Shown here: positions 10,991-55,438 of the stretch, one piece after another | Numbering within the stretch: the stretch's first letter is position 1 | Layout: each line of letters starts with the position of its first letter | From: Tubulanus polymorphus | Taxonomy: Eukaryota; Nemertea; Palaeonemertea; Tubulaniformes; Tubulanidae | Direction of reading: 5' to 3' | Assembly: GCF_964204645.1 (NCBI RefSeq) | Contig: NC_134028.1 | Location: 23,844,153 to 23,908,152 of the forward strand | Length of the DNA stretch: 64,000 nt | Notes under the pieces: generated by a model | Told to the model about the DNA's origin: nothing | Databases searched by the model: none | What the model saw: the letters and a program-made list of their open reading frames with translations, nothing else | Made by a program: the position numbers and the translations under genes

Positions 10991-11071
10991 GGCAGCGGTG
11001 GAATTCGAACCCACGCCTATTTCTAGACTGGTGCCTAAAACCAGCGCCTTAGACCGCTCGGCCACGCTACC
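10991..11071 (-). tRNA. tRNA-Leu (anticodon UAG)
   Basis: Reading the minus strand, GGTAGCG at the 5' end pairs with CGCTGCC at the 3' end (one G-U pair) to form a 7-bp acceptor stem. The anticodon arm is CTGGT-TTTAGGC-ACCAG, giving anticodon UAG for CUN leucine codons. A long variable region (TCTAGAAATAGGC) marks a class II tRNA, and the T arm GTGGG-TTCGAAT-TCCAC is intact. It has 81 nt, no intron and no encoded CCA. A TTTT run a few bases past the 3' end on the minus strand would serve as the Pol III terminator. Confidence 0.97.
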
Positions 11072-14000
11072 AATCCATGACAGATTTTCTTTTGTTTGTT
11101 GTTTTTTTTTGTTCATTTGCGCTCATTTAATCTTCGTATATAACCAGTCACGCTTTCCGCGTAATGAATTTGAACTTGTACTTGACTATCACGATATGAA
11201 ATTGTCTTATGGTGGTGATTGATTGATTGTTCTTATTTTGCGTCTCCTCAAGCCCACCACACCTACCGGGTACGTAGTTGGATTGTCGGTCGAATTGTTT
11301 TGTCTTTTTTTTCCAGGCGTACGAAGCACATAATCTTACCCTTTCAACTGTACTACCTGTATTATAACAAAATCATATTCTTGTGAAGAAAAACATTATT
11401 GTAAGCTGCCCTTTTACGAAGATTGATCAGAGAAAGTGATTTTATTTGTTTTCCTTTTTCTTAGCTGACAGCTTGAAAACATGAATATAAATTTAGTCAT
11501 TTCGGGTTATACGGAAATTGGCGGCAAACCGGAAACTGGACAAAAAGCAATGTTTAGTTTTTTTCTAGCGTGTTGATTACTCGACATGCAACTGGGAAAC
11601 CTTAACCGTGAACAGTAGAATCAGAGTCCCACCAGGGTCCGTTTCACAGAATAACTAAGAGTGTCATCAGTCATAATAACTCAAAACTGATGAATCTTCA
11701 AGGAAGCTTTTAGTCGCCTGTAAAACGGGTATCATCAGCATATCGCAGTAATGGCTCCCTGGGAAAATGGCTCCCACGATTTGACAAAATAGGTTCAGAT
11801 GGCGAGATCTTCCACCATCAGTATTTCAGTATATTCCCAATACATCGCCTATACTACAAGACACTCAATCGCCAGATCTCATCGTCTGGATCCCGATGCG
11901 ACACTCCACTTTGGTCTACGATGAATTTTTCTCAGAAGAGACGCGTCTCCCGATTTTTCTATCCTCGGTTATTTTCCATTTAAAAAATGATAACGCAGCC
12001 AATTACAATAAAACGTGTCAAGAACGAACGCCTCAAGTTTCAGTGGTACCCCATTCGCCCATTAGCATAGTGCTTTCCATTATGACCGGCTAATCAACTG
12101 ACAAATGTTATCTTCTCAGAATTTATTTTTCAATAGCAGATAATGTCGTGTAATATTCCATTTTCTGGCTGTTGCTCTTAGATTCTTTGTACAAAATAGA
12201 ATAAGAATTTTCCGTGTCCCTGCATGCTTCCCATCAATTTCTTTATGGCTTTGTACGAAATAGAATATGAATTTTGCGGGTTCTTCCTATCAATTTTTGA
12301 TGATATCATCAGCTATAAATTCTCGACATACCTGATGCGCCTACTACTTAAAAGAAATGCGTATGGAAAAGATCGATTATTGGACAAAGGGAATTCATCT
12401 CGAAAACGAAATGTTTTCTATATTTCTTTGTAATGATTGTTGCATGTTTACTTGAATATGATCCTCTTTGATGGGGTGAAAATGTTTCACGTGGTATCAT
12501 CAAGAGCTTCTGAGGATTTGAACATAACGTACGGTGCACAGGGTGACTGTTTCACTTCCGACTATTACTCACTGAGTATATGTCGTGTTGCATTTTCCGT
12601 CTTTTCCCGCAAATAGAGCGATCATCGATCTTCGATCCAAGCCCCATAGTTCAAATATATTCCGGCATATATTCTCCGTGTGTATCAGGACATCAACCCC
12701 TGCTGCTGCTTCCAGTCCCACTAGTTCAAACATTCCCTCGTTTTATGGAGAGTCAGAATGATATACGCCGCTCATATATCATTACGTGAAGAGCCATCTC
12801 GACCAACTGAATATATTCCCATTAACTCATTTTTAATGCTCTTAAAGATGACTTGTACAACATACGTATTTCTCGTATTGTACGTGAAATTTCTTTCTCG
12901 ACCAGAGATGGTTCGCTCCCAGGCTTTCGGTTACGCAGAAGACGCGTTGAACAGTCAGAACATAAGTTTAAAAAAAAACTATAACAAGTGTCCATGTGTA
13001 ACATAATGATATAAAAGAAATAATACAATGCAAAGGGCATTTGTTATGAGAATGATGGTGATGTATATTATAGCTTTGGAGGTGAGCCAAATACGAAGCA
13101 TGGCTACTTGTTTAAAGAAAATTTACTGCGGCCATCGTTTCACTTTGAATGGAAATCTTTACGACAAGAACTATACTCATTTAGATCTTCTACATGGTGG
13201 CTGATTCGCGTCAAATGCAAAATTTCTGATCTACAAATAAGGGTGCTCGAAAGCGAAATCGCCAAAACAAAGGAAAATGAGACATGTAAACTTGCATTTG
13301 GTTTAATATATTGAACATGATTCTTCTAACGGTAGATTTAGACAGAAATATTTACGAAAAAACACCTCGTCCATTTAGCGAACGAAATGGCTTCGGATCC
13401 ACGCGAGAACGGATTTTCTAATGTTGTTTAATCACCTGCGATATCGGCGACTAATTCCGCGTTAAATTATTCACGTGAACGGAAGTCGACGGCGACGACG
13501 GCGATTGAAACGTGTCACGTGATCGGTTTTGCGCGTCTGATGTGCGACGAACCGGTTTTCCCTCGCGATTAACTACATCAATGTCACGCCTCGAAGGAAT
13601 ATCGGAAGTCGAAAATTGAGAAGCGTTTATCAAACGCTTCAGATGGAAAAAAATGATCAGAAATTTTACAGTTTCCGTTCTATTTGACTGATGTCGTTGG
13701 ATTGTATATACGGCACACGTAGCATTCAAAAACAAAATCCTACATTATTCAATCTAATCTATGAAATCCAACTCTAGGAGCTAGATAGACCGTAGATTGG
13801 CGATAGGAGGAGAGAGACACAAGAAAATAATATATCATTACAAATTGATCATACGAAGCTAAGTTAGGTATAATGGCCACAATCATACGTTGAGAACAGA
13901 AACTCATTATATACATATTTAAAGGTTTTAAACTCAAGAATTTATTGAAAAGTAAAATGATTTTTTTGAACTCTCAGTAGAGGTCATCATCAGATATTGA

Positions 14001-15658: not shown

Positions 15659-18608
15659 GACAGTTGGACGTAATTTTAAACAGATTATCTGCACGCTCTG
15701 ATTTACTAAAAGATCCTTTCGTGTCGTCTTTATCCGTCAATTTGCGTCTACTTCAAAACTTGGTCGATGTATTCAGTGAACAAGCTACACCGGCCGTCAG
15801 CAATTCCACGCCGAATTATTACAACAGTAAATTTGAACTTTTATCTTTTAACCCGTTTTATATGTAGGGTTTCATCGTGCCACACTGCCCGTCGTTGTGA
15901 CATTTTACGTCTGTTAGCCGTGGTGCTGTGACGGCCAATATGACACGTTATGACTGTGCCTCTGTAACTATGAGCTAAAGATGAAATTACAGTCCGTTTC
16001 TTTTTCACTGAAAATCTATTATTTCATTTTTACAGGATTATGGCCGATACTAGTTAAAGGTTTCTGGGCGAAAGCTGAGCCGGCTCGTAGCATTAATACA
16101 GCGTATATCATGCATAACATCCCGGAGCGTGAATCTATCAAAGAATACCAGTCAGATAATTGTGTGTCAGAGATTTTAAATACTGAGTTAGTATGAACGG
16201 TTACCCTGCACTACACCCTTTCTCGGTCGAATCTCGATAACGAAATTTTTTTTAATGCATTCATTGAAATATTAAGACCATTTTATTGCAACACAAGAAG
16301 TCTTCGATAATACTGACGAGGAGAACCCAACTACCTTTGTCACTTGGATTAAGAAGGACCCTGTATTCAGAAACTGATCTGTTTTATTATTATCAATTGT
16401 ATTTCAGTGGATGGTCAACGAACGAATGCGATATAAACGACGATTGTTGGTCACGTATGACGTCACCGGGCTATAGGATGTATTCATTGTCACATGAAGT
16501 ATTCTATTTAATAATAGGCTCTCAGGTAATGTTTACACAGGGAGAGATATTAAACCTATATAAGTATTTGTCGAAGACTCCGCTAGTTCACGAAACAGTG
16601 ACAATTATTGCCTTGGTCCAAGTCAAATATATGACGTCAGCCATGTGTGCCAACTGTGTATTCATACGCGGCGGTTCACACATTTCAGCATCGAAATAGT
16701 CACCGACGAAGTTGTCGACCTAGTGGCCAGGAACGTATCATGTTGCTGTATGGAAAACTAGACTGATCTATAAAAGATTAACACCATCATTGATGGACAT
16801 TATTCTTCTCGAAAAATCTCCCGTGACACCTACCATTGAATATATAGACATATCTAATCTGTATGTCAACATTTATATGTATTTTTATGGCAGAACCTTA
16901 TCTCAACACATGCTTCAACTAAATTTCACTGAACAAGCATAGTATTACATGCCAGAGAGTTTGTTGTAAAAATATCCCAAATCCATTTTATAGACGAGTT
17001 TATTCCAGTTAAGTCAATAAAAGGTTTAACCATTTGTAGATATACGAAAAATCATGGTTTTCCTTACGTATCCCGTCACCATGGCGACAGTTGGGAGTAC
17101 CCAAAATGTTGTTACTACAAGATAGCCAATGACTCCTGCTAACATGGCATGCATAAACTTGTAAAATATTCCATCATACTTGGCTGCATTAAAAACTTAT
17201 TTGAGCTGCTTACTGCAAAAATTAGGTTATATTGAATAAAAGTAGAATTATGGTGGGGTAGCGTTGTTGAAATTTTTCATTGTTGCTTTTTGCGAAAAGG
17301 CCATACCCCATAATGTATGTGTAGGTCAAAAAATTATCCGTTTATCTGCAATACTTTTTGAGTAATAAACCTTTTAAAAAACCCTCCTAAAGGCATGTAT
17401 TTTATCAGCATGTTACCTTAGCAACACAATATCTCGGCCCGGCTCATGTTACCAGGGTTAAAAATCTACCAAAATAAACTTCAGAATTTTATCTTTCTTC
17501 AGTGAAAATTTGGGCTTTGAGGTATGACCTACGATAAATATTTCACGATTCCAAGCGTATCATAGATTTTGTATAAAGAAATTGTATCGATAACTGATGT
17601 GATCTCCTGCAGGTATGGAACACAGCGTACGGTATATGACGATACTGATGGGGTGTTAACCAATTGACCCATGAGACCCATCATCACTCCCTCGAGTGAT
17701 CGCCATAATACTGATTAATTGTTTTTTTTTTCTTAAACTGGCTTCAGAATAGTTTTTGGAAGATATTTCTTCCTTTGAGACGGTAATGGTAATTCTTCAA
17801 AATTAAGATGCCACAAACTTCTAAAAAACGGCTGTTTTTGTTCTGAAGATCTAGTAAATGAATTTATTATCTACTTGTCTATATTGCAGTATGGATGCAA
17901 AGCTAAGATCGATGCTAATATTGAAAAATTCCACCAGGGTAGTTTATCTGAATTGTACAGTAGATTTTGTTCCAATATGTTTGAAGAAGCCACAGAAATT
18001 GCCGAAAACGATTTTACCGACTTGCAACAAGATCTATTTATGGAGCAAAGTAAGGGCTACGGAATCTAATTGCTGTGACACATCGAAGAGTTTTGTTTTT
18101 AGTTCTGTATTTCATTGCGTTGAATCGAATTTTAATAATACCGCTTAGATATTGGTCATCACCCCGCAATACCCGCCAATTCACTAATTTCAGTCGCTTT
18201 ATGTGGTATAGTCGGTTTCAAGGACTTTGCCAAGACCGAATGGTTAAAACGCATACTAAGTTGGCAACGGCCGAGTGGCTGTTACAGTTCGCGTGATTAC
18301 AACAAGATTCCCAAAAATTCCAAAGGTAAGAAATCAAAAAAGCTGTTAGAATCTGCGCCAAAACCTATAGCGTGATTTACTATTCTTATTTTTGCTTTCA
18401 TCGAATTCATAAATCGAAGACTTAAGTGGTTTTTCTGATTCCAGACGACGACCTGGAGACGAATTCGAGACGGAAACGCGCCGAGAAGGTTCTAAACGAC
18501 GGCTGTCTATCGCATAAAACCACTGTAGCTGCCGGGGCTCTGGCCGTTAATGTTCGTTTTATTTTGGAAGATATCCTGAAAAAGGAATTCCACACAGATT
18601 TATTCTAA
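15659..18608 (+). CDS. C16orf89: C16orf89 / UPF0764 (DUF4735) family protein, 5' exon missing
   Basis: Vertebrate C16orf89 is a poorly understood secreted protein of the UPF0764/DUF4735 family. Six exons join in phase: 15659-15826, 16036-16186, 16408-16525, 17890-18049, 18194-18325, 18445-18608 (stop). Family signatures as remembered appear in order: a W-P-x-L-V-x-x-F-W segment (exon 2), two Cys-containing stretches plus Y-S-L-S-H (exon 3), FCSNM...LFMEQ (exons 4-5), LCGIVGFKDF and WLKRILSWQ-PSGC (exon 5), and DGCLSHKTTVAAGAL near the C terminus (exon 6). The sequence begins inside the N-terminal helical part. No signal-peptide exon in matching phase was identified upstream, so the start is unknown. 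The four methyltransferase genes follow directly. Identity is firm; function is unknown. Confidence 0.85.
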
Positions 18609-18815: not shown

Positions 18816-18849
18816 TCACATTCAGTCGTGTAGAGATTAAGGCAGCAAT

Positions 18850-19707
18850 ATGGATGACGCCCTGTGCAGCGCTTCTTATGAGTCCTTTCTGTTTCATCAC
18901 AGCGTGCTCATTACGGCTCCAAAACGATTGTCAGAAATATTGCTTCAATGTTACAGCAATATATCTGATCAAGGTCGAGGTTTACGGGTGCTTGATATCG
19001 GACCAGCTCATGGCCATCTAATAGAGGATGCATTAGCAGAGGCTGAAGTTAAAATTGAACGGTTTGACTGCGTGGAACAGAATATGGCTGCCGAATTGGA
19101 ATCACGAATCAAAGGTTTGGCTGAAAAATACAGCTTTGGTTACAAGATACATAACGCACGGTTTTCGACTGAAAGCGTCTCTTTCTTGCCGAATCATTTC
19201 TATGATTTGTTAATACTTTCGCATGTGCTATACTACTTCCAAGACCCGGCTCAGATTTTGAAGACGGCCTTGTATCAACTGACGAGCGATGATGGACGAG
19301 CATTCGTCTTGCTGGACCAACGTATGACGTGCGCTACAGTACGAGAAGAGTTGAATAAACTCAGCGGAACATCGAGCGATGATGATGACCAATTTCAGCG
19401 ACGATTTGATATAAACAGAATCCTGTCTGAAGCAGAAACTCAGACGATCAAACAATGGACCGACAATAATGGTTTGCTTCTACATTCGGCGCTCAAACCA
19501 GCTCAACCCTGCTACAGCAAAAATGACGAAAATATGCGGAAAATAGGTGAAGAGGTCCTGTCGTTTTTAACATTACGAAATGTAGGTGCGATGTCTGAGG
19601 ATGAACGAGCGGAGATACAAGATGTCGTCAGGAAATATACGGTGAACAGTTATGGGTTACCGATACTTCCAATAACTACGTTGATGGTTGTACTGGCTAG
19701 AAAGTGA
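18850..19707 (+). CDS. histamine N-methyltransferase-like protein, copy 1
   Basis: An intronless 285-residue class I SAM-dependent methyltransferase. SAM-binding motif I is VLDIGPAHGH (residues 48-56), followed by an acidic-loop motif DCVEQN (73-78) that resembles the VVEPS region of histamine N-methyltransferase. A later LYYFQDPAQILKTAL stretch resembles the conserved LYY-KD-P-TL of HNMT. Likely reaction: methyl transfer from SAM to a small amine; the substrate is unknown. Motif I has Ala where copies 3 and 4 have Gly, and two residues present in copies 2-4 after DCVEQN (SY) are deleted. A TATA-like run lies about 40 bp upstream. First of four tandem copies; nearly identical to copy 2. HNMT-like is the best call, but another small-molecule methyltransferase is possible. 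Confidence 0.75.
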   Translation: MDDALCSASYESFLFHHSVLITAPKRLSEILLQCYSNISDQGRGLRVLDIGPAHGHLIEDALAEAEVKIERFDCVEQNMAAELESRIKGLAEKYSFGYKIHNARFSTESVSFLPNHFYDLLILSHVLYYFQDPAQILKTALYQLTSDDGRAFVLLDQRMTCATVREELNKLSGTSSDDDDQFQRRFDINRILSEAETQTIKQWTDNNGLLLHSALKPAQPCYSKNDENMRKIGEEVLSFLTLRNVGAMSEDERAEIQDVVRKYTVNSYGLPILPITTLMVVLARK

Positions 19708-20184
19708 GAAAATTAACATTTTCTGTATTTATAATGTTATATGAAGCCAATGAGCATAGTTTAGTTTAACGTTTTATAAACATATCTTAAATGATGGACG
19801 TTAGGTATATAAAATGACAATGTGAAATAGTTCGTGTGAAGTATCATTTCATGTTATTTGTAGTTTGATTTTTCAATGATTCGTGTATTCATGTTCATTT
19901 CATACCTTTTTCGGTTACACACAATTCCAATACAAACCATTACAGTCGTAAACAGATTTATTCTAATTAAAAAAACTGTTTTACATTTGGCGTTTCATTA
20001 CTTCGTTAAACGAGGGTGGAGGTGGATATCAAATAGCGTTTGAATAGTTCAGTGGCGGAAGGCCTTTTGACTTCCTCCGTTCATTATTCATATCTCGTAA
20101 ATTTGATTTATCTCGACAAGACAAACTACTAAGTAAGATAACAAATATGGGGACTTTACTCACTGGTGTAAAGACTAAGGCAAT
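19708..20184. other. spacer between methyltransferase copies 1 and 2
   Basis: Bases near 19950-20000 (agatttattctaatt, then a T-rich run and cgtttcattact) match the end of the C16orf89 coding exon and its 3' flank near 18596-18650. The duplicated unit therefore carried the tail of that gene with it. No intact gene is present. Confidence 0.7.
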
Positions 20185-21048
20185 ATGGAAAACGCCCTGT
20201 GCAGCGCTTCTTATGAGTCCTTTCTGTTTCATCACAGCGTGCTCATTACAGCTCCAAAACGATTGTCAGAAATATTGCTTCAATGTTACAGCGATATATC
20301 TGATCAAGGTAGGGGTTTACGGGTGCTTGATATCGGACCAGCTCATGGCCATCTAATAGAGGACGCATTAGCAGAGGCTGAAGTTAAAATTGAACGGTTT
20401 GACTGCGTGGAACAGAATAGTTACATGGCTGCCGAATTGGAATCACGAATCAAAGGTTTGGCTGAAAAATACAGCTTTGATTACAAGATACATAACGCAC
20501 GGTTTTCGACTGAGAGCGTCTCTTTCTTGCCGAACCATTTCTATGATTTGTTAATACTTTCGCATGTGCTATACTACTTCCAAGACCCGGCTCAGATTTT
20601 GAAGACTGCCTTGTATCAACTGACGAGCGATGATGGACGAGCATTCGTCTTGCTGGACCAACGTATGACGTGCGCTACAGTACGAGAAGAGTTGAATAAA
20701 CTTAGCGGAACATCGAGCGATGATGATGACCAATTTCAGCGACGATTTGATATAAACAGAATATTGTCTGAAGCAGAAACTCAGACGATCAAACAATGGA
20801 CCGAGAATAATGGTTTGCTTCTACATTCGGCGCTCAAACCAGTTCAACCCTGCTACAGCAAAAATGACGAAAATATGCGGAAAATAGGTGAAGAGGTCCT
20901 GTCGTTTTTAACATTACGTAATGTAGGTGCGATATCTGAGGAAGAACGAGCGGAGATAGAAGATGTCGTCAGGAAATATACGGTGAACAGTTACGGCTTT
21001 CCAATACTTCCAATAACTACGTTGATAGTTGTACTGGCTAGAAAGTGA
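20185..21048 (+). CDS. histamine N-methyltransferase-like protein, copy 2
   Basis: Intronless, 287 residues. Nearly identical to copy 1 over its whole length but retains the SY pair after DCVEQN. Motif I is again VLDIGPAHGH, with Ala in place of the second glycine. The start codon aligns with that of copy 1, although the second residues differ (MENAL versus MDDAL). Its 5' and 3' flanks align with those of copy 1, so this is a tandem duplication of about 1.3 kb. Expected to be a cytosolic SAM-dependent methyltransferase. No frameshift or stop suggests decay. Confidence 0.75.
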   Translation: MENALCSASYESFLFHHSVLITAPKRLSEILLQCYSDISDQGRGLRVLDIGPAHGHLIEDALAEAEVKIERFDCVEQNSYMAAELESRIKGLAEKYSFDYKIHNARFSTESVSFLPNHFYDLLILSHVLYYFQDPAQILKTALYQLTSDDGRAFVLLDQRMTCATVREELNKLSGTSSDDDDQFQRRFDINRILSEAETQTIKQWTENNGLLLHSALKPVQPCYSKNDENMRKIGEEVLSFLTLRNVGAISEEERAEIEDVVRKYTVNSYGFPILPITTLIVVLARK

Positions 21049-21309
21049 GAAAATTATCATTTATTAGCTTTTTATCAACATATTCTAAATCATTAACGAT
21101 ACGTATATAAAATGCCAATATGAAATAGTTCGTGCAAAAAGTATTTATTTGTAGTTTGATTTCACTGATTCGTGTATTGGTTTTCCTCTCCTTTTTCGGT
21201 GTCGTGTTATCTAAATAGTATATGCAAATATAGTTCAAGAGATGAATATAAACCAAACAATCACCCAGGACTATTGGTAAGTGGGAGCTGTATGTTCAAG
21301 TACTATGGA

Positions 21310-21915
21310 ATTCCTCAAGGGTCTTACGACTTACGAGTTTACGAGTTACGTTTTACGAATTACGACTCACGTTTTACGAGTTACTTATACATTTCCTTGA
21401 ATACGTTACGACTTACGTTTTACGAATTACACGCATTTCACTATTGGCTTCAGATAGCTGAATGGGGCGCATTATTTAAACAGCATAGTGATTAAGAGTA
21501 TATTGTACAGTGACCAGGGTGCCGCATGGCTTCAAAATCTATTGACACGGAACACACGGAGCGGAGATTGAGCTTAATTTGACCATCGGGGATTCCGATT
21601 CCTAGAACAAGCCTTTTGTTTTCAACAATAAGAAATGTGTTTATTTTTTGAAAACACATCGTTACAGCCATCCATCTACAAAATTAAAATTCGGTTATAA
21701 TTACAACACGCATCACATACAACGCTCGTTTGAAAGCTCACGCGGTTTCATAATTCAATTGTCCTTGTCCTCTCGCGATAAATTAAACCCAAACGCACGG
21801 CAGCTAAATCGTTATTTGTGAAACATAACTTGTTATTCGTAACTCGTAAAACGTAAGTCGCAACGATTCGTAAAACGTAACTCGTAAGTCGTAACTCGTA
21901 AGTCGTACGGCCCTT
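21310..21915. mobile_element. MITE-like element with TTACGACTTACG-repeat ends
   Basis: The left end (about 21318-21440) is built of degenerate tandem units such as cttacgacttacgag and acgttttacgaatt. The right end (about 21838-21915) holds the same units in inverse orientation and finishes gtaagtcgtacggccctt, matching the left start aagggtcttacgacttac. The roughly 600-bp unit sits between copies 2 and 3 and has no coding capacity. Subterminal tandem repeats in inverted orientation are typical of some non-autonomous DNA transposons. Exact ends and target duplication are not certain. Confidence 0.65.
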
Positions 21916-21999
21916 CGCCTGATTTAAATGCTGAAGCTATTTTATGTTTGCAAGTGGATGATATTTATGGTTCTATTTTCTGTGCACATACGGACGACC

Positions 22000-22878
22000 A
22001 TGGATGACATACAGTACACATCATCTTACAAATCTCTTCTGTTTCACCACAGTGTGCTCATTACAGCTCCGAAACGATTATCCGAAATATTGCTTCAATG
22101 TTACAGCGATATATCTGATCAAGGTCGAGGTTTACGAGTACTCGAAATCGGACCCGGTCATGGTCATCTAATAGAGGACGCATTGGCAGAGGCTGAAGTT
22201 AAAATTGAACGGTTTGACTGCGTGGAACAGAATAGTTACATGGCTGCCGAATTGGAATCACGAATCAAAGGTTTGGCTGAAAAATACAGCTTTGATTACA
22301 AGATACATAACGCACGGTTTTCGACTGAAAGCGTCTCTTTCTTGCCGAATCATTTCTATGATTTGTTAATACTTTCGCATGTGCTATACTACTTCCAAGA
22401 TCCGGCTCAGATTTTGAAGACGGCCTTGTATCAACTGACGAGCGATGATGGACGAGCATTCGTCTGCTTGGACCAACGTATGCCATTCATCACGATACGC
22501 GATGAGTTAGATAGAGTTATTCCACGAACCAGTGAAACATCGATCAACATCAAACACCAGAAGGGAACCTTTGATATAGAAATGGTTTTGAACAAAGCAG
22601 AAACTCAAACTATTAACCAATGGAGCGACAATACCGGTATCCTTCTTCATTTGGCGCTCAAACCAGCTCGACCCTGTTTCAGCACACGCGACGAGAACAT
22701 GCGTAAAATAGGTGACGATGTTTTGTCGTTTATCGTGCAAAGAGATGTAGGTGCTATGTCAGATGAAGAGCGTGTAGTGGTACAAGATATCTTCAGGAAA
22801 TATTCGGTGGAAGTTGACGCTTTTCCTGTACTACCGATAACTACAATAATGTATGTTTTGACTAGAAATAGCAAGTAA
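22000..22878 (+). CDS. histamine N-methyltransferase-like protein, copy 3
   Basis: Intronless, 292 residues from the ATG at 22000, chosen because MDDIQYTSS aligns with the starts of the other copies; an upstream in-frame ATG at 21928 would add 24 residues with no counterpart. Motif I is canonical here: VLEIGPGHGH. The N-terminal half, to about residue 160, is almost identical at nucleotide level to copies 1 and 2, while the C-terminal half (after DGRAFVCLDQRM) is clearly diverged. That mosaic suggests gene conversion. The likely SAM-dependent role is as for copy 1; the different C-terminal half may change substrate choice. Confidence 0.75.
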   Translation: MDDIQYTSSYKSLLFHHSVLITAPKRLSEILLQCYSDISDQGRGLRVLEIGPGHGHLIEDALAEAEVKIERFDCVEQNSYMAAELESRIKGLAEKYSFDYKIHNARFSTESVSFLPNHFYDLLILSHVLYYFQDPAQILKTALYQLTSDDGRAFVCLDQRMPFITIRDELDRVIPRTSETSINIKHQKGTFDIEMVLNKAETQTINQWSDNTGILLHLALKPARPCFSTRDENMRKIGDDVLSFIVQRDVGAMSDEERVVVQDIFRKYSVEVDAFPVLPITTIMYVLTRNSK

Positions 22879-23387
22879 TGGTTTATGAAATACAGTATAA
22901 ACCTTGCGCAAGTCGGATCTTTTGGGACCAAGAAGAATCCTCCGACTTGGGATAAGTTGGATAACCAGCCTTTTCCCGAAAGCTATGAATTGAGGATTGA
23001 TTTCTGTAAACGGAAAAACTGAATTAACATCTTTAAGAAATGATTTAAACACAGAAACATTCCGGCTTTATTTTTTCTATTCTAATACACTAAACCACAA
23101 CGACATAACGACTGTTGACACGCATCGTCGATTCCACGCCAGGAACAGGGGTCGGAACGGGAAAGAAATCAAACTGTAATTGGAAGAAGGTAGCCCTCCG
23201 ACTTTCGGTGAGTGATCACTGATTTTTTATTTATAGGACCAAGAAAAGTATTACGAGAACATTCCGACTTACAAATCCGACTTTGGAATATATATCGGGA
23301 CCATCAATATAATCATCCGATATAACCGATTTATGCGACTGTCGCCGACTCGCGTTTACTGTACATATAAAAATAAATACTGTACAT
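22879..23387. other. spacer between copies 3 and 4
   Basis: Contains short imperfect inverted motifs (aagtcggatc...tccgactt near 22910-22955, and again near 23195-23290). No gene is recognised. Confidence 0.5.
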
Positions 23388-23428
23388 AGGAAAATAAGGT
23401 CACCACATGTTACAACAATTATAAGCTA

Positions 23429-23518
<90 letters not shown>

Positions 23519-23559
23519 TAGCTTATAATTGTTGTAACATGTGGTGACCTTATTTTCCT
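23388..23559. repeat. 172-bp palindrome with a (TA)44 core
   Basis: A 42-base unique arm starting aggaaaataaggtcaccaca at 23388 is followed by 88 bases of pure TA (23430-23517) and then the exact reverse complement of the arm, ending at 23559. The whole block can fold into one hairpin or cruciform. It lies 85 bp upstream of the start of copy 4. It may be a foldback/MITE element whose loop expanded as a microsatellite, or an assembly join of a long TA tract. Confidence 0.95.
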
Positions 23560-23644
23560 GTATTATCAAGTTGAATATGATAGATCATATCAAACCGAGT
23601 TTTGTCAAACACAGTTTCTTACAGGCAATATATAGTCACGAACA

Positions 23645-24523
23645 ATGGACGACGCACAGTACAGCGCTTCTTTCAAGTCGTTATTATTTCATCTAAGTAG
23701 AACCCGGTCGGATCCAAAGCGATTGTCAGAAACATTGCTCGAATGCTACAGGATTATATCTGATCAAGGTCGAGGTTTACGGGTGCTCGAAATCGGACCC
23801 GGTCATGGTCATCTAATAGAGGACGCATTAGCAGAGGCTGAAGTTAAAATTGAACGGTTTGACTGTGTGGAACAGAATAGTTACATGGCTGCCGAATTGG
23901 AATCACGAATCAAAGGTTTGGCCGAGAAATACGGCTTTGATTACAAAATATATAACAAGTGGTTTTCGATCGAAAATGTTTCTTTCTTTCTGCAAAAGTT
24001 CTATGATTTGTTAGTGCTGTCTAATGTTCTCTACAGTCGGTATTTCGACAATCCGGCGCAAGTTTTGAAAACGGCTTTGTATCAACTAACCAACGACGAT
24101 GGACGAGCGATTGTCTGTCTCGATCTCTCCGAAAACTTTCCGACTATCCGCAACGATCTTTATAGTATTCTACCACGGGACGACGAAACAACAGCCATTG
24201 CCGAGCAATTCAAGAAACCATTCGATATAAATCGCTTTCTGATAGAAGCAGAAACCCGAACGATCGCACAATGGACCGATGTTCATGGCCTAGCTCTTCA
24301 TTTAGCGCTGAAACCAGCTCGACCCTGCATCAGCGAAGAAGATAACAACATTCGTAGAATCGGTGACGAAATCTTGTCGTTTATAACGCGCAGAAATGTA
24401 GGCGCGATGTCCGATGAAAAAAGAGCCGTAATTCAAGACGTCGTAAAGAAATATGCAGTGGATAGTTACGGGTTTCCGATACTTCCGATAACATCGGGTT
24501 TCTTTGTTTTGGCTAGAAAATGA
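23645..24523 (+). CDS. histamine N-methyltransferase-like protein, copy 4
   Basis: Intronless, 292 residues, the most diverged copy. Motif I is VLEIGPGHGH, followed by DCVEQN. The segment around motif I (about 23757-23945) is almost base-identical to copy 3, while the sequence on both sides differs at many sites, pointing to a short conversion tract. The LYY motif is altered (NVLYSRYFDNPAQVL), with two extra residues. The C-terminal half keeps RNVGAMSDEKRA and LPIT, which are conserved in all copies. An intact frame suggests a working enzyme; substrate unknown. The TA palindrome occupies its immediate upstream region. Confidence 0.75.
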   Translation: MDDAQYSASFKSLLFHLSRTRSDPKRLSETLLECYRIISDQGRGLRVLEIGPGHGHLIEDALAEAEVKIERFDCVEQNSYMAAELESRIKGLAEKYGFDYKIYNKWFSIENVSFFLQKFYDLLVLSNVLYSRYFDNPAQVLKTALYQLTNDDGRAIVCLDLSENFPTIRNDLYSILPRDDETTAIAEQFKKPFDINRFLIEAETRTIAQWTDVHGLALHLALKPARPCISEEDNNIRRIGDEILSFITRRNVGAMSDEKRAVIQDVVKKYAVDSYGFPILPITSGFFVLARK

Positions 24524-28058: not shown

Positions 28059-31000
28059 TCAAACCATTTTGCTGGTTACTTTTTGTTTGGTGTCGAATTT
28101 AAACGCGTAAACCGAGTCCAGAAATGAATCTGGTAAAAACGGTGTTATCGCCGCAACGATTCGATGCGCTGAGTTAGGTACGTATCGAGTACTCGGATGG
28201 ACCTCTAAGAGCGCTTCCACGATACTGTCGACCACCTCGCCTGTTTCATGTACCGCTTCGTTGTCTAATAAGCTGGCTAGTTTGCGTCTGAACGAATGGT
28301 AGTAACGATTGCCGTATGAAAGCTGGACCGATTTGGGCGTCTGCGACCAATTACTTTCCATACTGGCCAATATAGCATCTGAGTTTGAAATTGGAGTCCT
28401 ACAATTATAAGATAGATAGATGTCCATCAATAGATTTGCACTGTGATAGTTGACTAGGGTTAATTAGATATACATATATATAGCATATCAAAATTCATAG
28501 ACAATACTGTTCCGTATGACGAGTGCTCAGGACACATGATCTGATAGGTCAAAGTCCTGTGAACTGGTTGTATGGTCAGTACTGGCTATTGTTTTAGATT
28601 TTTCGATGACGTGGTCGTCTGGTTCTGCTGGGTATAAAACCCAGAGGGACACGACTCTCGCTCTCTCTTTTGTCTAGCTCTCTTTTGCTCAGACTTTGGC
28701 AGCCATCGGTTCAGACGTTGGTTAGGTCCCATGAGATCGCCTAGTTTGTTAGATTTATTTTTGGAGAAGTTTCATCCGTATATAGAGGTGATCGATCAAC
28801 TGACACCCACAAAAGTAAAAACACGACAGTGTTACGTGACGATGTTTAAAGGAGATTTAACACCAAAGATATTAATTTAAAAAGATTGACAATATTTTAA
28901 TGTCCAATCTGGATGTATAAGCCTAGAGAATACATTATATTTTTCATCCTGTAACGTAATAATAGGATGTTCTGGGTTTTCTGACACTTGTTTTAGATTT
29001 TGGAGACTTCGCACATTCATGAAGTTGAGAGGGGGTGGTAGGCGCGATTTCTTGCTTCCACAAGTGCGGGCATCGAGACATCGCCGCGATAAGGACAGTC
29101 GATCCGTCAGAATCTACTAAAGGGATGGACGCAATTATGTTACCTGTACAAACCGGGCTCAATGGTATGCACGGAAATCTCGAATTTACGCATTTCTCTT
29201 TTCAAACACTCCGAAAAACCGACCACCGCAAACTTCGACGCGGTGTACGCCGAAAAAGACTGGATCCCACTTCGACCTGAAAGAAATGAAGGAAATCATT
29301 TGACGATAAAATAAGTAACTAATTAAGACTTGCTTCGCACATCGCAAGAAATTTACCTGCTAAACTGGCTAAGTTTATGATCCGACCCTTAGTTATCCTC
29401 AGAAACGGTATGAAAGCTTTCGTAACGCGCACCAACCCCAAAAAATTGACATCGTACATTCTCGTGTATTCCTCTAACGACGTCCATTCAACCTCCGAAC
29501 AAGTCGTAACACCAGCATTATTTACAACGGCCCACAGACCTATACATCAAAACAGCCAAAAAAAATTTTCCTTCAAAATATTTTCTTATTTTCAATGACA
29601 CAACTACACAGTGGAACCACTTCACAACGAACCTGTGGACCTGAAAATCTATCCGTTAAAACTGATAGTTCGAATCCGGTATGAAATTATTTGAATTGTC
29701 CTATTTGGGATGACATTTTACTTTTATAATAACCGATAAATCTATATCTGAAGTCGTTAGGTTGCACTGTATAGTTTTCCAGCAAAAAAAATGAAAATAT
29801 TTAGTTAGTTTTGATTTAAATGGCAAAACAGTAGATTTAAAGATCAATTATTTACCAGTCGGAGGTAATTTGCTTTCAATAAATTGGACGGCATGAGTGA
29901 CATCTTCGTCTTTGGTGACGTCTAACTTCAGAACATGGAGTCGCTTTGAGCCGACGTTCATCAACGAGTGAGCACCAGACTTGGTCGGGTATAAACAACC
30001 GGCAAAAACCGTAAAACCAAGTCGATCTAATTTCCTGGCCAGTTCATGTCCAAATCCACTGTCGCAACCTGAATTATGAAAATCGAGATTCCGATCTAAG
30101 AAGAAGCGACCGTTCTAGAATTGAATTCAAGTCAACACAACTGGATCATAGTGTGTCAAAGTCTTCGGAGAGATTTTGAAACGTGTAATGGATAAATGTT
30201 GTCTTCTCGTCAATGTTGTTAATGCACTTTCAACAATTATCCCATTATGATAACTGAAGTAGATTTTCAATAACACTTATAATACACGAATCCATTCTAA
30301 ACACGTCTGACTACTGCAAGATTTATAATGGCTTCTTTGCATGCTAAAGAGGACTTCAATCTCAGTAGCACTTGCGGGTAACAAACATTCCGTATGAAAT
30401 AAAACACCACGCACGAGTATGAGTGGAGATAGAGAGCGCCCATAATTCAAATATTAAACCATCAAAAGAGTTCAATCGTTTTTCAGATATCATTTTAAAA
30501 GGAACCTATAATATGGCTGCAGCCAGCAAAATTAAGCCAAGTCAGTAGCTTGACGGTTCAGGCTAGTTGGAAGATTGTTTGAATAAACTGGAGCCGAAAC
30601 TTCTGTGTACTTAGATTTAAAACGAAAAATTCAGTAAATTCGACCGCCGAACACACAACTATATATCTGTACTTCAATTTCCGATTTCAAAATCAAACCC
30701 CATGTTTCGTGCTCGGCAGGTGTGGTGGGTCTGTAAGGGACACCCAATCAAGTCAAAACATATCAGACAAAATCGACGAATTGAATAAACAACAGGGTCA
30801 ATCTCTATTTCAAGATAAAAAATGAACCTAATTATTTTTTTCTTATTCATACAACGTTGACAATGTTCCAACTATTAATAGTCATGTTTTCGGAGATCCT
30901 ACAGTCGTTTTGTTCCCATTCATTTGCTACAGAAAAGAATGATATGCTGCTGCATATAAAAGGAGAATGAAATAGGCTGATTAAAAATCCTTCTTTTCAG

Positions 31001-32470: not shown

Positions 32471-35400
32471 TTACGGGACTTTCGGTTGAACAAATTGCAC
32501 CGACACGCCTGGGTTCTTCATTGAATCCTTTTCTTTTTTTATCTGTGTAAAAAGATAAATGAAGACATCATAGTTTTCGCGAAATAACCTTCGTAGTTTC
32601 GACACTTACGACCAATACGAACATTGAATCTTTTACTAAAAATCGCCCCTATTGCTTACCATTATATAACTATCAATATTTGTTGGTCCCTTTGCTCTGA
32701 GAAGATGTGGAAGTTGATTCTGAAAATGTATACATACACGAAGCTTGTTCAAATTCATTACAACATCACGTCTCCGAAAAAAAAATTGCAATTTTAAGTT
32801 TATTTCAAAATCATGTAGAATTTTTTACCGTTTTGATATATTCCCACACAGTGCCGGCGAATTTGAACTTGTAGATTCCTTTATCGTTTGGTATGAGATA
32901 AATTGTCGGCACCGAATCGAAGTCACCAGTACCAACATCTAAAAGGTGACAACAACAAACGTAAGAAAAAATAAAAGATTTTGGTCACATTTCAGCGGCG
33001 ATTACGTCTCGAATTTTCCAGAGATAATTACATTCAACTGATTATACATGGCTCGTAGCGCGCAGGGGGTTTTAGCGAGTTACGACGAGTCGACCAAAAA
33101 GAAAGCGGTCCGCATTTGAAAACAGAATTTTCAAAAATTGAATTAAATCCTGGGCCGCGATACATGACTAGCATCATGAACTCCATATTATAGGAAATCT
33201 AGAATTGCGACCTTGCAGTCACAGCGCGATGTTTCTAACTTCGAGCGAGCAACGTTTCAAAAAGGTCCGCATTTTAACGAAAACCAACTACCAATATAAT
33301 CAGTCACGCTACGGGCGTTTTAGTGACCGGTAAAATGTCAGAATCGTTAAGGAATCGATTTGAAAGAATATACGCACGAATGATGTTTCCTTTCGCTGAA
33401 CTCAGTTGATCAACATCTAACCGAATCGTAATGAATTTGCTGCCGGTCGGAATCAATCGGATTTTCATGAAATTACCTACAAAAAAAGGATAGAAACCGT
33501 GTTATATCTTCGACAGGATACTGATTCTTCTCGGACTTGGAGTAAACGCACCGATCTTTTGCTGATTATAAACGAAGCTAACAGACTGACAGGTAGACCC
33601 GTCTCCACCGCATATACCGCACTTATCGAAACGTTTCTTCGACTCAAACGAATTATCGCAACCCAATTCCTTTAATAAATAACATTTCATAAGGATTTAG
33701 ATTGGTTTATTAGTTCAATAAAAAAGCATTTGCTTCGAGCGCAGAAACGAAAATCAACAATCTATGTAAATGCAGGATAAACATGAATATCAATTACCAC
33801 GGTATATTTTTTTTTGGCGTGACATTACTAAGTCAAAGTGGGTTTTTTTTCTGTCTACTAAATTATCCAGATTCATTGGGGTTTTTCTATACAATCTAAG
33901 AGGATTTATGTATATTTTGGAAACATAAACCTGTTGATTTGGATGCATAAAGTAAATTGTAAATGGTCACCGGGTCGATCGCGGGGAGGGAGTTATTACC
34001 GTACAAACACCGTCAACGCATACATCATTCTGTCGATCTGAACAGCTTTTTCCATTTCTCGCTTTGTGCGGCTTAAAGGATAGTTTAATCGCTGATGCTG
34101 TACATAACATTGTACATCGGGTAGAGCCTAAAACATGGTAAAATGAAGGTGAATTATCGCTGACATTTGAAATCTCGTTGATTATGGTTAATCTGTTATT
34201 TACCGGTGCCGTACATCGCGGGATCATAAGCCGCGTATATTTTAGCCTGACCTAAAATACCGCATTCGGAACTCAAAAGTTCGTGTCTCGTCTTTGGAAT
34301 CGTTGGACAAGCCTGTAAAATATGAGGATGTTAGATCCCGAATAACACGGCTAACGGGTCAGACGCAGGTTTACACGACTATAGTTTCACATCGGCACCA
34401 CGCGCGCGTACCTGCTCGTAACAGTATTTGACTCGAAATGACGCCCCGATGCATATTCTACCTCCAGGACCTGGTCTACAATTACAATCAGAACAACGTC
34501 AATAGAAACAATTACTTACAGTAAAAATTTAAGAAAGGATGACTAAATAAGAATTTCATGTAGTATATATTGATATGTTTTGTACGTACGGTGGATTCGT
34601 GCACGATCTATTCGATATTTTGACACCTGCTCCGCACATTCTCGAACACGGACCGAAATCTGACCATTTCGACCAGCCGCCATCCGCCGGGCAGCGAATT
34701 ACTTTTCTGATCGGCCAACTTAGCCTGATCAGGTTCGAAGATTTCTTGGGCTTCTTGGGCACCCGCGTATCGAGGCAGGTCGATTTCTCTGATCTGGCGG
34801 AGAATGAGAATATAGATGCGGTTATAATGACACAGAACTCACGATGTAGGTTCGAACCAGCCGCGAGGTATTCACCCCACGAGACGGTAAGCAGAATGTT
34901 GAGGTTTGATGGTATTGTGGGTAGCATTAACTCCTAACTCTTAAAACCTATGGTTCAAACTTATGGTTCTAGCAACACTTTTATAATGTAAATCTATTAT
35001 GAAAATGTATTAACATAATTCACAATTACATATATGGAATAGGCCTGCAATGGCCCTTAATTCCAGAGAGAAAAAAACCCATGAAATTCGCAGATATAGT
35101 ATGGCTGACACCGTATATACGACAAGCTTTAAAATTCTTTTCCCGCTGGAACAACGTTACTGATTCCTTTCTTTATGTACAACTACAAAATGTCACATTT
35201 TTTCTCCTCTATTCATTGACGGTGGTCGTTTTTTTACCTTAGAAATTCTTTCATCCCTTTGATGCTACATTTCGACCAAAACATCCCATCAAATTGACTG
35301 AACATCAACCCGGCTGGGCATATATTCTTATATGGTTCATTGTAGTCATCAGGCATATTGAACCTAAAAATTATTACGTTCAACCTATTTCAAAGCTCGT

Positions 35401-39966: not shown

Positions 39967-42535
39967 TTATGACTCGATCAAGTTTCCTTCGAGATTCAAC
40001 AATTTCGACCCGTAAGTCTGTACGTAATCTAATAACCGATTGATTTTATCCAAAACGCGATAAATATCTTTGTCGACGTGTCTTAGACTGTTGGGTGGTT
40101 GATAACGAATTGAGCTGATTTCGGCAAGAATATCCTGTCGATGTGCGCCTTCGTCGGTCAGACCGAACGCGTGGGCGATGCCTCTGAAATGGCACAGAAA
40201 GTTCTTGACGTAGTTGACCATGATGTCTTCGATGTTCAGACGACTGATTCGATCGATTCGGCTTCGCTCGAATAAACTAACGTGATGTAGAAATACGACA
40301 TGGCGCAAAGCTAGTTTCTCCAGTCTCTTAATGCTGTCGACTCGATCGTCCTGAAATATTCAAAATATCATTTCGAAAATAACCCATTTATCGAACCATG
40401 CACGGCGTACAAATATGTTTTATGATTATTTTTTTTTGATTTACCAAAGTCTTCACGGAAAAATCCTTGTCGGCAAAATCGCGAGCGACTGCGAGAGCTG
40501 GGATTCGATCAGTTGTGTTGTACTTTAGCCTCCTCGTAAACTAAAAGAAAAAACAACAGAAAAACACATTCATAGAAAATCCGAATATTCCCGAGATAAG
40601 TGGATGAGAGAATTGTTGGTAAATAGAAAATGATCGACTACCAGTCACCAGAGTTTCTCTGGAGGTTACATTTAGATGAATCACAAAACTGTCAGATCAT
40701 TAAATTTTGAAATATCATCAGTGCGGGATTTTTCGTTAGATTTCCAATCTATGAAGTTACGGCTCGGTGGTGTATAATGGTTAGCACACAGGGTCGTCCC
40801 AGGTTCAGATCCTGATAGCTGTCCTTGAAATGCCACGGGTCTGATTACTAAGCGCAGGGGTGGCTCGAATGGGAGAGTGTAGGGTGTCAACTTGCCCCAT
40901 GATATTTCATGGGAAAATGACAAATATCAAACTGACACCTAAAAAGTTTTAATTCATATTATTAGCTTGTGTCCTCTGTATTTCCAAAAATGAGTTAATG
41001 TTTTCTAAAACGTTTTTTTTTCGGGTGCCCTTTTAATCATATGATGTGCCCTGTTTTGAGATCAGACCCTGGACCAATTTAAACATGATAAAACAACATC
41101 TGGTTTTGAGTTAAATCATTTGGTTTTGATGCCCCTTAAGATTCTTACCGTAAAGTCTTTTAAATGGTTTATTTTATTTTGAAGCCGTGATGCGGCGAAC
41201 ATGAACGCCTCAATCTCAGCTCGTGTGATGGATGTGGGCCGGTAATCCTGCGGGCCGCACGGGTCAAAAATGTCAATCTCACTCGGTAAACTGAGAGCAT
41301 GTGCCGACACCGCGCCGGACGAGCGCCGTGACCGTATCGGGTCAACCGGGAACGGTGCAGATAAATCTAACATAGCTCCTACACAGAACAACACTAAAAA
41401 CGAATGTAGCAAACCTAAAATAACAAACGTATAAAACTCAAGAAAATTTTCAAATGGTCGCATAAAAACTGGGGGTACGAAGTAAAGAAAATCCACGTTT
41501 TTTATGAAAATGTTTTTGAGCGTTTCTTTTTATTGATTTTCACCGTGGAACTCACAATTACCGGTAAGCAGGTAGTGGTTTGATCGAATTTGTTATAAAG
41601 ACTTCGTTTGATAGATTCAAGTTTCGTCAATATTAAGCGCATTAAATTAAGTAGCTATTAAAGGTCGAGTTATTTTAGAAGAACCACCCAATTATTTCTG
41701 CTGGGGACACCCCTGTTATAAGATAAAACAGCATTAAGCACGGAGATTACTCTGTAAATATTGCGCTATATCAAGAAGATAAATTATTATTACTATTATC
41801 AGTATACTAAAGATTCTTGCCGGCAACTTCCAGGAAGCCAAAGCATTATTGAAACCAAATGGTTTTTCCTGAAACCATCTAAAGAAGTGGTCATTTTTCG
41901 ACTTGTAAAATAACGTTATTAACCTTAGAATTTTCAATGGTACCCACGGATTAGATAGAATTTTATACATAACTATCTAGTCATACATGCATGCATTGTA
42001 ATAGAAATGTTACCTTTAACAACGAGATACATTCAGCAATTTATCACTCAAAATTTCAAGTAATTGAAATTTTAAATTGATTTGATCTAATGACACTTTC
42101 AACTAAACGATTACGTATATGAATAGGTTTTTCGAACGAATTTTATCAAGAGCATACAACAGTATAAAATTTTCCTTTACAGGAATAAGTGAGCCCCGAA
42201 CACACATGGATACTCACATAGATACTGTAAAGGGGAGTTAAACTCGAGCCGAACGAAATCTAATCCTATTTTGCTTTTCGTAAAATACATTGTCTCAGAG
42301 ATATTGATCAACAAACTCCGAACAAGAACGATATAATATTAATCAAGATGAGTTTTGAACTAGATTTCAAAGAGAACTGAAACAATGTTGATTGATATTC
42401 TTCGTTTAAATAGAAACCACTTCTAATTACAGTAACGCTCATGAATATTCATGGAAGGTAACTTCTGCGAAGGTGGCATCGCGCTAAAATGTCAAACGCT
42501 ATGTGGTATTTCAAAAACTTACGAATTTTCACCAT
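39967..42535 (-). CDS. secreted helical protein, candidate four-helix cytokine
   Basis: No close relative recognised. Four exons on the minus strand: 42535-42523 (ATG plus 10 bases), 41414-41149, 40540-40445, 40350-39967, giving 252 residues with intron phases 1, 0, 0. Exon 1 joined to exon 2 yields a textbook signal peptide, MVKIRLLHSFLVLFCVGA. A furin-type RSRR (32-35) follows. Four long amphipathic helices are apparent: A about 66-98, B 126-157, C 164-189, D 215-246, with loops between; Cys57 and Cys178; one N-glycosylation sequon at Asn101. B, C and D share the last exon. A tiny first coding exon and four such helices recall IL-6/LIF/CNTF-class cytokines. An unspliced start at 41463 is less likely because it makes the intron's T-rich end into protein. 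The fold assignment is inference. Confidence 0.7.
40745..40925 (+). repeat. tRNA-derived SINE candidate
   Basis: An A-box-like ggtgtataatggttagcac (from about 40768) and a B-box-like ggttcagatcc (40801-40813 region) are spaced as in a tRNA gene. An unrelated tail follows, ending near tatcaaactgacacc. It cannot fold as a full tRNA. It lies in intron 2 of the cytokine-like gene. Confidence 0.5.
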
Positions 42536-43837: not shown

Positions 43838-45004
43838 TTATTTACAAAATACAGAAAATATAATGATAGAAATGATAATGTCATGACAATAGGTTTTTCT
43901 ATACTGTACAACTGGCACTATGTTGTTGTTAGGAGGAGGCAAAATACTCTGCAAGACGAAGTACGAATTTAGCGTCAATCTGCTGCTTCTCGGACAGTCA
44001 GTATAAATCGATCTTACTTCAATAAACCCTTCAAAACAGCGTGTAAAGACGATACCTAAAGACTTAAAGACTAGAGCATTATTCGAATCAGTAAATTCCT
44101 GAAATGTTATTATTAACCAATCTATACGTGCTACGTGACTCAATGGCTTCTAAATTCGTACTCGGTCGGGTGAAAATCCAACTGATTTCACTTCTACGAA
44201 AAATCATCAACTATTCATCGGATTTCGGGTGAAATATAACCTTTTTTTCAAAACGTTGTCGTGTACTTGTGTATCTTATACTTACAATTGATATGTGACG
44301 AGAAGAACAGGGACCTAATAATAGTTATATTCGATACGATTTGTGATGAGTAAAAAATACTGACTGCATCAATTCTAAAACCAATGAGAGCTGCGAGGAA
44401 CCACAGATGGAACTGTTTCCTGTCAACCACAGGTGGTACTGGTTCCTGTGAACCACAAGTGGAACTGTTTCCTGTGATCCATAGACGGAATTGGTTTCTG
44501 TGAACCACAGGTGGAACTAGTTCCTGTGATCCACAGGTGGAACTGGTTCCTCCAAACCACAGGTGGAACGGTTTCCTGTGAACCACAAGTGGAGCTGTTT
44601 CCTGTGAACCATAGACGGAAATGGTTTCTGTGAACCACAGATGGAACTGGTTTCTGTGAACCACAGGTGGAACTAGTTCCTGTGATCAACAGGTGGAACT
44701 GGTTCCTCACCTCACATAAAATTGCTACCGACTTTTATCAAAAAGTGTACAACAAGGCCAGAGTGAAATTCGTATGAGCCCTGAGTTGTTTCTATCAAGC
44801 AATTCTCAGTGTACAACTTACTTCTAGTTGACTCGTAACACGCTGTAGAAAAGTCAGCTTCAAACCGTATAAAGATTTATCTATTAAATGTAGCGAATAC
44901 AAAACTAATGCCGGCTGTTTAAGTATGCTGTCCTCACCCCTCAGACAATCTATCACCATCCTTACATAAACCGATCGTTCAGCCATCGCCTCGACCTCGG
45001 GCAT
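43838..45004 (-). CDS. unrecognised three-exon small gene model
   Basis: Three minus-strand exons join in phase 0: 45004-44822 (61 codons from ATG, begins MPEVEAMAERSVYVRMV), 44098-44018 (27 codons) and 43948-43838 (36 codons plus stop), for 124 residues. Both donors are good (GTAAGT, GTAAGA) and the acceptors are CAG. The first two exons read as a helical soluble protein (RLRG-free, rich in L, V and S). The last exon ends in an isoleucine-rich hydrophobic run (DIIISIIIFSVFC) that could instead be translated intron. No signal peptide or family motif is seen. Intron 1 holds a 26-bp minisatellite. It lies about 1.3 kb upstream of the cytokine-like gene on the same strand. It could be part of a larger gene with missed exons. 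Confidence 0.4.
44395..44712. repeat. 26-bp minisatellite, about 12 copies
   Basis: Unit ccacaggtggaactggttcc plus tgtgaa, tandemly repeated with point changes. A higher-order period of about 130 bp is visible: the run near 44449-44550 resembles 44578-44708. Because 26 is not a multiple of 3, the long open frames on the minus strand through it are by-products. Confidence 0.92.
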
Positions 45005-45255
45005 TTTTATTTGAAAATGAACCACAATCTTTGCCCGAGCCCACAGACATACGATATCATCAGCACGAATGGAATAATATCAGATCGTCCAGACCAACAC
45101 GAGGTGTTTGTGTAAGGAGAATGCAGGGTACGGACACGTAGATAACCGCATGAAACACAATAGAGACAGTAATGAGTGGTTTCAAAGTTAAAAGTACTGT
45201 TTTCACATAGATATCACTCACATAAACTATAGGCTCTTGTCTCCAGATACAGGGA

Positions 45256-45425
45256 ACCACACGGGGGGTTACATGATACAACAGGGGACCACCGGCGCGG
45301 GGGTTACATGATACAACAAGGGACCACCGGGGCTGGGGATACATGATAAAAGGGGGTACCACCGGGGCGGGATACATGATGAAATGGGTAACCATGGGGG
45401 CGGGGATACATGATAAAACTGAGGT
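45256..45425. repeat. G-rich minisatellite, about five units
   Basis: Tandem units of about 33-35 bp with core gggaccaccggggctgggga followed by tacatgata. Units vary by small indels. Confidence 0.88.

Positions 45426-48024: not shown

Positions 48025-55438
<7,414 letters not shown>

Follow-up and report, generated by a model that had tools for sequence, protein, structure and literature searches.

A candidate gene for a secreted four-helix, cytokine-like protein in the nemertean Tubulanus polymorphus

Background

Does a nemertean genome hold a ligand of the LIF/IL-6 kind? The question is raised by a predicted gene on the minus strand of a 64,000-nucleotide (nt) stretch of Tubulanus polymorphus DNA (NC_134028.1, positions 23,844,153 to 23,908,152). 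This whole stretch is called the window below, and positions are counted from its first letter. An earlier reading of the letters (the original prediction) had named the gene, at 42535-39967, as a four-helix cytokine gene of an invertebrate. When this proposal was followed up computationally, it was partly supported, and the gene is a serious, unproven candidate. Its most likely reading, to which we give an about even chance, is a cytokine-like ligand that is secreted, has four helices and is of the long-chain class I (LIF/IL-6-like) type. We consider it highly probable that the gene is real and that its product is secreted.

Gene model and spliced signal peptide

The candidate gene is composed of the following elements.

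42629-42622, minus strand: TATA-like element TATATAAG, some 90 bases before the ATG
42535-42523, minus strand: coding exon 1, 13 nt, encoding MVKI plus 1 nt; ends in phase 1; donor GTAAGT
41414-41149, minus strand: coding exon 2, 266 nt, with the remainder of the predicted signal peptide, a short pro-region with RSRR, Cys57 and predicted helix A; ends in phase 0
40540-40445, minus strand: coding exon 3, 96 nt, with the putative linker between helices A and B (AB) and the NTT glycosylation site at residue 101; ends in phase 0
40350-39967, minus strand: coding exon 4, 384 nt including the stop codon, with predicted helices B, C (carrying Cys178), a short helix between C and D (CD), and D
39621-39616, minus strand: candidate poly(A) signal AATAAA

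Translation from the ATG at 42535 gives 759 nt, or 252 amino acids and a stop codon, across three GT-AG introns with the frame kept and no internal stop. The 13-base first exon, its ATG, its donor GTAAGT and the acceptor at 41414 were confirmed letter by letter, and at the predicted junctions 42523/41414, 41149/40540 and 40445/40350 the splice-site letters are present in the sequence and the frame is intact. Exon 2 begins at 41414 after ...TTATTTTAG and ends at 41149 before GTAAGA; exon 3 begins at 40540 after ...TTCTTTTAG and ends at 40445 before GTAAAT; exon 4 begins at 40350 after ...ATATTTCAG, and the stop codon ends at 39967.

The signal-like start is created by the splice between exons 1 and 2, as had been claimed, with a mean hydropathy of 1.75 and 1.9 in 19-residue windows starting at residues 1 and 6, respectively. 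A signal peptide made by splicing from a tiny first exon is uncommon. When both strands of the window were surveyed for an ATG followed 6-30 nt on by a GTAAG or GTGAG donor, with a pyrimidine-rich acceptor within 1.5 kb, 230 combinations were observed, of which 16 were open for at least 70 amino acids and three of these 16 started signal-like. Two of the three are the candidate gene itself, once with acceptor 41414 and once with 41393 as an alternative, and the remaining one is an unrelated chance case. Since acceptor 41393 also preserves the signal-like start, the exact acceptor of exon 2 is uncertain.

The base composition and codon usage were also analyzed. The guanine plus cytosine (G+C) fraction is 0.445-0.50 in exons 2-4 versus 0.27-0.38 in the introns. 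The codon score of the coding frame (0.055) is higher than in the other two forward frames and was reached by 0.8% of 5000 stretches of 759 nt drawn at random from the window; this score was trained on just four reading frames from the window, all methyltransferases, and is thus a weak test.

These results bear on whether the model is wrong or partial, with exons of different transcripts, a pseudogene or a functionless lineage orphan in place of a working gene. The exon junctions are predicted from the sequence, acceptor 41393 works as well, the survey produced one chance case, and one antisense frame of the candidate also has a positive codon score (0.024). The product is also without a relative in the Pfam, PDB, own-genome, prokaryote and virus searches given below. 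Against this stand three introns that keep the frame with good GT-AG sites, the absence of an internal stop, the G+C contrast between exons and introns, the codon score, and the TATA-like element and AATAAA at the two ends. A faulty model is considered improbable.

Properties of the protein product

The RSRR motif of the furin type, one of the features originally proposed, is present at residues 32-35, and the mature remainder would be 217 amino acids (25.0 kDa, isoelectric point 8.5). The product was also described as poor in cysteines, and it has three in the precursor (15, 57 and 178), of which just Cys57 and Cys178 lie in the mature part. There is one N-glycosylation site, NTT at residue 101.

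When the product and exon 4 were compared with Pfam, no significant match was found (the best was TYW3, E-value 0.22, below the cut-off), in agreement with the claim that no known domain would be present. The phmmer search of the product against PDB sequences found nothing up to an E-value of 10. The protein search of its own genome, also to an E-value of 10, returned three matches, all of them the three larger exons of the candidate, and no second copy. In collections of prokaryote and virus contigs, 71 and 14 pattern matches, respectively, were observed and none was confirmed; an animal orthologue is not expected there.

The RSRR near the signal-like start, together with a further basic doublet seen by eye (RR96-97), would also suit a neuropeptide- or prohormone-like precursor, with the helical part acting as a carrier and cleavage at RSRR freeing a single peptide or several. 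However, the RSRR is single, and neither a repeated peptide nor an amidation-type array of glycine and basic residues was seen in the product by eye. The 217-residue remainder is mostly predicted to be helical, and most neuropeptide precursors are not predominantly helical. We regard such a precursor as very improbable.

Predicted helices and gene plan

AlphaFold was run on single exons (exon 2 and exon 4), leaving out exon 3. Helix A was predicted at residues 69-92 (residues 64-87 of the exon 2 model), with block means of the predicted local distance difference test (pLDDT) of 93 and 97, and 88 at the exon end. The exon 4 model has a mean pLDDT of 60.8 and contains, at low confidence, helix B (127-154), helix C (159-186), a short CD helix (192-204) and helix D (215-251). 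Thus, of the four amphipathic helices originally proposed, all were predicted as helices, A confidently and B to D with low confidence, but only helix D exceeds shuffled sequences in amphipathicity (above 2000 shuffles, p < 0.0005; B p 0.11, C p 0.14, A p 0.32).

The linkers are approximately 34 (AB), 4 (BC) and 28 (CD) residues, a long-short-long pattern. This pattern fits an up-up-down-down bundle because that fold needs long AB and CD loops; the loop requirement, and the short helix carried by the IL-6 CD loop, are described in PMC7378365 (papers are cited here by PMC number).

The candidate has intron phases 1-0-0 and exon sizes of 13/266/96/384 nt; predicted helix A is encoded by exon 2, the putative AB link by exon 3 and predicted helices B-D by the last exon. 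In the genes for EPO, GH, IL-6, G-CSF and LIF, a tiny first exon ends in phase 1 and the later introns are in phase 0, and in the LIF gene helices B-D lie within the last exon. Of the LIF/CNTF/IL-6 gene plan that had been suggested, the tiny exon 1 is present and helices B-D are predicted within one exon; the plan used for reference comes mostly from general background on these genes. In the IL-6 gene, which has five coding exons, helix A is encoded by exon 2 (PMC7284502). By our estimate from typical phase frequencies, phases 1-0-0 have a prior of ~0.06 in any four-exon gene, so this pattern in the candidate is supporting, not decisive. At that strength, the gene plan appears to resemble those of long-chain class I cytokines. 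Taken together, the single-exon models and the exon layout support the reading of the product as helical and secreted, with an exon layout and linker pattern like those of class I cytokines.

Comparison with LIF and other cytokines

The product did not match the IL6, LIF_OSM or CNTF families of Pfam. The genome scan with PF01110 found nothing, and its control was silent as well. BLASTP against human LIF gave an E-value of 0.44, the top piece having 8/19 identical residues with Cys178 opposite LIF Cys131; the automatic alignment pairs Cys57 with LIF Cys60. The product was also compared by shuffling with 10 cytokines, the 11 controls being 5 unrelated proteins and 6 reversed cytokines; human LIF was at the top of the ten cytokines (p 0.03), yet an unrelated control scored higher. 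A likeness to LIF noticed by eye (R-x-V-V-Y/F-L in helix B, N-x-T-D in the AB linker and K-D-V/I-F/Y in helix D) was rejected, as the shuffle test did not raise it above chance. The proposed membership in the IL-6/LIF/CNTF families was thus not supported by the profile, BLASTP and shuffle comparisons, and on the present evidence the candidate should not be assigned to IL6, LIF_OSM or CNTF.

LIF has three disulfides, including Cys18-Cys131. In the candidate, Cys57 and Cys178 likewise lie before helix A and in helix C, and they form one possible pair compared with the three of LIF. With LIF and IL-6 the candidate would further share secretion, a similar mature size (180 amino acids in LIF, 217 in the candidate), long helices with long AB and CD linkers according to the single-exon models, and the tiny phase-1 first coding exon with later phase-0 introns. 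It differs from both in having no significant sequence similarity to them and in carrying a pro-region with a predicted cleavage site at basic residues.

The alternative closest to these results is a mostly helical secreted protein of a different sort, for instance a carrier of lipids or a protein of mucosal or reproductive secretions, with no role in JAK-STAT signalling and a cytokine look that is generic. Four observations weigh for it and against a cytokine-like ligand: the fold search with the exon 4 model was full of generic helical bundles, no significant sequence link to any cytokine was found, an unrelated protein passed LIF in the shuffle test, and helix D alone is clearly amphipathic. 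Against it stand a pro-region that terminates in RSRR and a specific combination of long-short-long linkers, a short CD helix, phases 1-0-0, a 13-nt exon and an exon for the AB linker. We consider this alternative rather doubtful. As for the proposed four-helix bundle, the helices and linkers of the single-exon models fit it and the fold search did not single it out.

For the cytokine-like ligand, the following course may be proposed. The precursor would enter the secretory pathway and lose its signal peptide near residue 18, and a furin-type protease would cut after RSRR. The mature chain would fold with A and B up and C and D down, and Cys57-Cys178 would possibly link helix C to the stretch preceding helix A, as Cys18-Cys131 does in LIF. 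The 25-kDa product could then bridge class I receptor chains and activate the JAK and STAT of the genome. Homology to the IL-6/LIF class is possible, if doubtful, and we hold with the same reserve that the candidate is a true class I LIF/IL-6-type cytokine of a non-insect invertebrate and the native ligand of a gp130/Domeless-like receptor.

JAK-STAT pathway in the genome

STAT_bind matched (E-value 1.4e-8) at a single locus, C6:5284818-5285916, with an adjoining STAT_alpha match under the cut-off (2.9e-5). A single STAT locus fits an invertebrate (PMC3296744), and to this extent the invertebrate origin assumed in the original prediction was supported. A search for COX1 found no match in this assembly, its control being positive in 8 of 14 genomes. 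The search with PF18377 led to a JAK locus within C2:7417500-7427400, which contains FERM_F1 (E-value 4e-8, over the cut-off), FERM_F2 (1.1e-4, under the cut-off) and kinase pieces with E-values down to 4.3e-10. The kinase pieces are ordered like a kinase domain that is followed by the beginning of another, and by eye the first carries an HGN motif of the pseudokinase type. The genome search with PF17887 (JAK) gave no match, and its control was silent. JAK and STAT are therefore both found in the same genome as the candidate.

Class I receptors were searched for in the genome with PF09240, which found nothing with a silent control, and with a human gp130 fragment (64 matches) and a receptor consensus (149 matches), which led to titin-like or other fn3 stretches and no convincing receptor. 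Translations of 30 loci were read for the gp130 fragment; the loci of the receptor consensus were scanned only for WSxWS. This motif occurred four times in 76 loci; one occurrence lies in an fn3-like frame that looks usherin-like by eye, and the other three lie in frames not fn3-like by eye. As the queries are human-based, the failure to recognise a class I receptor is not conclusive. The receptor searches also brought up a large fn3 array at C1:8.39-8.48 Mb, titin/twitchin-like by eye.

Neighbouring genes and other features of the window

The window contains 539 stop-to-stop frames of at least 45 amino acids, of which the 150 longest were listed; 131 of these were pooled for Pfam and 30 were scanned singly. 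The 19 frames outside the pooled scan are mostly overlapping or repeat frames. The candidate gene is located between the first two features below, and the third lies inside it.

48028-50979, minus strand: SUZ12 polycomb gene (Zn_SUZ12 at 50698-50979, E-value 3.2e-26; VEFS-Box at 48028-48327, E-value 6.9e-12)
34559-34933: thrombospondin-type frame (TSP_1 match among the 131 pooled frames; placed by eye)
40882-41070: interspersed repeat, non-coding, in intron 2 of the candidate, with 73-82% identity to at least 40 other places in the genome

The candidate is unlikely to be part of SUZ12 because the two are more than 5 kb apart and the candidate has a TATA element, a signal-like start and a stop of its own. 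The intron 2 repeat may be a short interspersed nuclear element, as a tRNA-like stretch was noticed by eye near 40770-40840.

Four tandem methyltransferase-like frames (288-316 amino acids from stop to stop, plus strand) at 18841-24523 are near-identical in parts by eye and suggest a recent local expansion; Methyltransf_23 and _12 were found in 4 of the 131 scanned frames (best E-value 5e-10). A DUF4735 exon is located at 17779-18066 on the plus strand (E-value 8.3e-10), this family being found in four scanned frames (best 1.8e-13), and an adh_short (short-chain dehydrogenase) exon at 29851-30114 on the minus strand (1.9e-7). The window also includes a CLEC16A gene, with CLEC16A_C and FPL in two scanned frames each (best E-values 6.5e-25 and 2.7e-7, respectively). 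Minisatellites occur at 44398-44707 and 45249-45419, with a 26-bp unit in 11.9 copies and a 35-bp unit in 3.1 to 5.1 copies. ARAGORN placed a tRNA-Leu gene at 10989-11072 on the minus strand (Rfam tRNA 10990-11071).

Known invertebrate ligands and significance

In a 2026 BLAST survey (E-value ≤ 1e-5) covering 18 metazoan phyla or subphyla, IL6 was found in vertebrates alone, and in molluscs IL6R-like receptors, JAK and STAT co-occur 'in the absence of a canonical IL6 ligand' (PMC13203501). A 2021 survey likewise locates IL6 superfamily members in no invertebrate and cites an IL6-like factor of the starfish Asterias forbesi (PMC8226699), an earlier report of IL-6-like activity beyond chordates and insects, to which the candidate can be likened by description alone. 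Within the parts of the open-licence literature consulted, no sequenced IL-6/LIF-type ligand from non-chordates was found besides insect Upd.

Other comparisons are also by description. A type I helical cytokine resembling GH, 208 amino acids long, occurs in amphioxus, and several more such genes are reported there (PMC9010856). Like the candidate, it is a non-vertebrate helical protein of highly divergent sequence, but its assignment rests on phylogeny, modelling and function, that of the candidate on sequence and single-exon models. Insect Upd1-3, the ligands of Domeless, are secreted invertebrate JAK-STAT ligands (PMC13203501, PMC7378365), and the candidate differs in having no Pfam family match. 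A shrimp C-type lectin is an alternative activator of Domeless (PMC5645147, PMC13203501); no lectin-domain match to Pfam was found in the candidate. An oyster IFN-like protein is reported to have a class II-like structure (PMC9756803).

A ligand as divergent as the candidate would evade BLAST surveys at an E-value of ≤ 1e-5. If the candidate is a true class I cytokine of the LIF/IL-6 type, IL-6-type ligands would have been overlooked because sequence searches cannot detect them, and the tiny-first-exon plan and the up-up-down-down fold would predate vertebrates. If the candidate is real, a tiny phase-1 exon, RSRR and long-short-long helix linkers would serve as a search recipe for further ligands. 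Once confirmed, the candidate may be the kind of ligand apparently missing from many invertebrate JAK-STAT systems, and it would be a concrete protein for testing how JAK-STAT is activated in invertebrates outside the insects.
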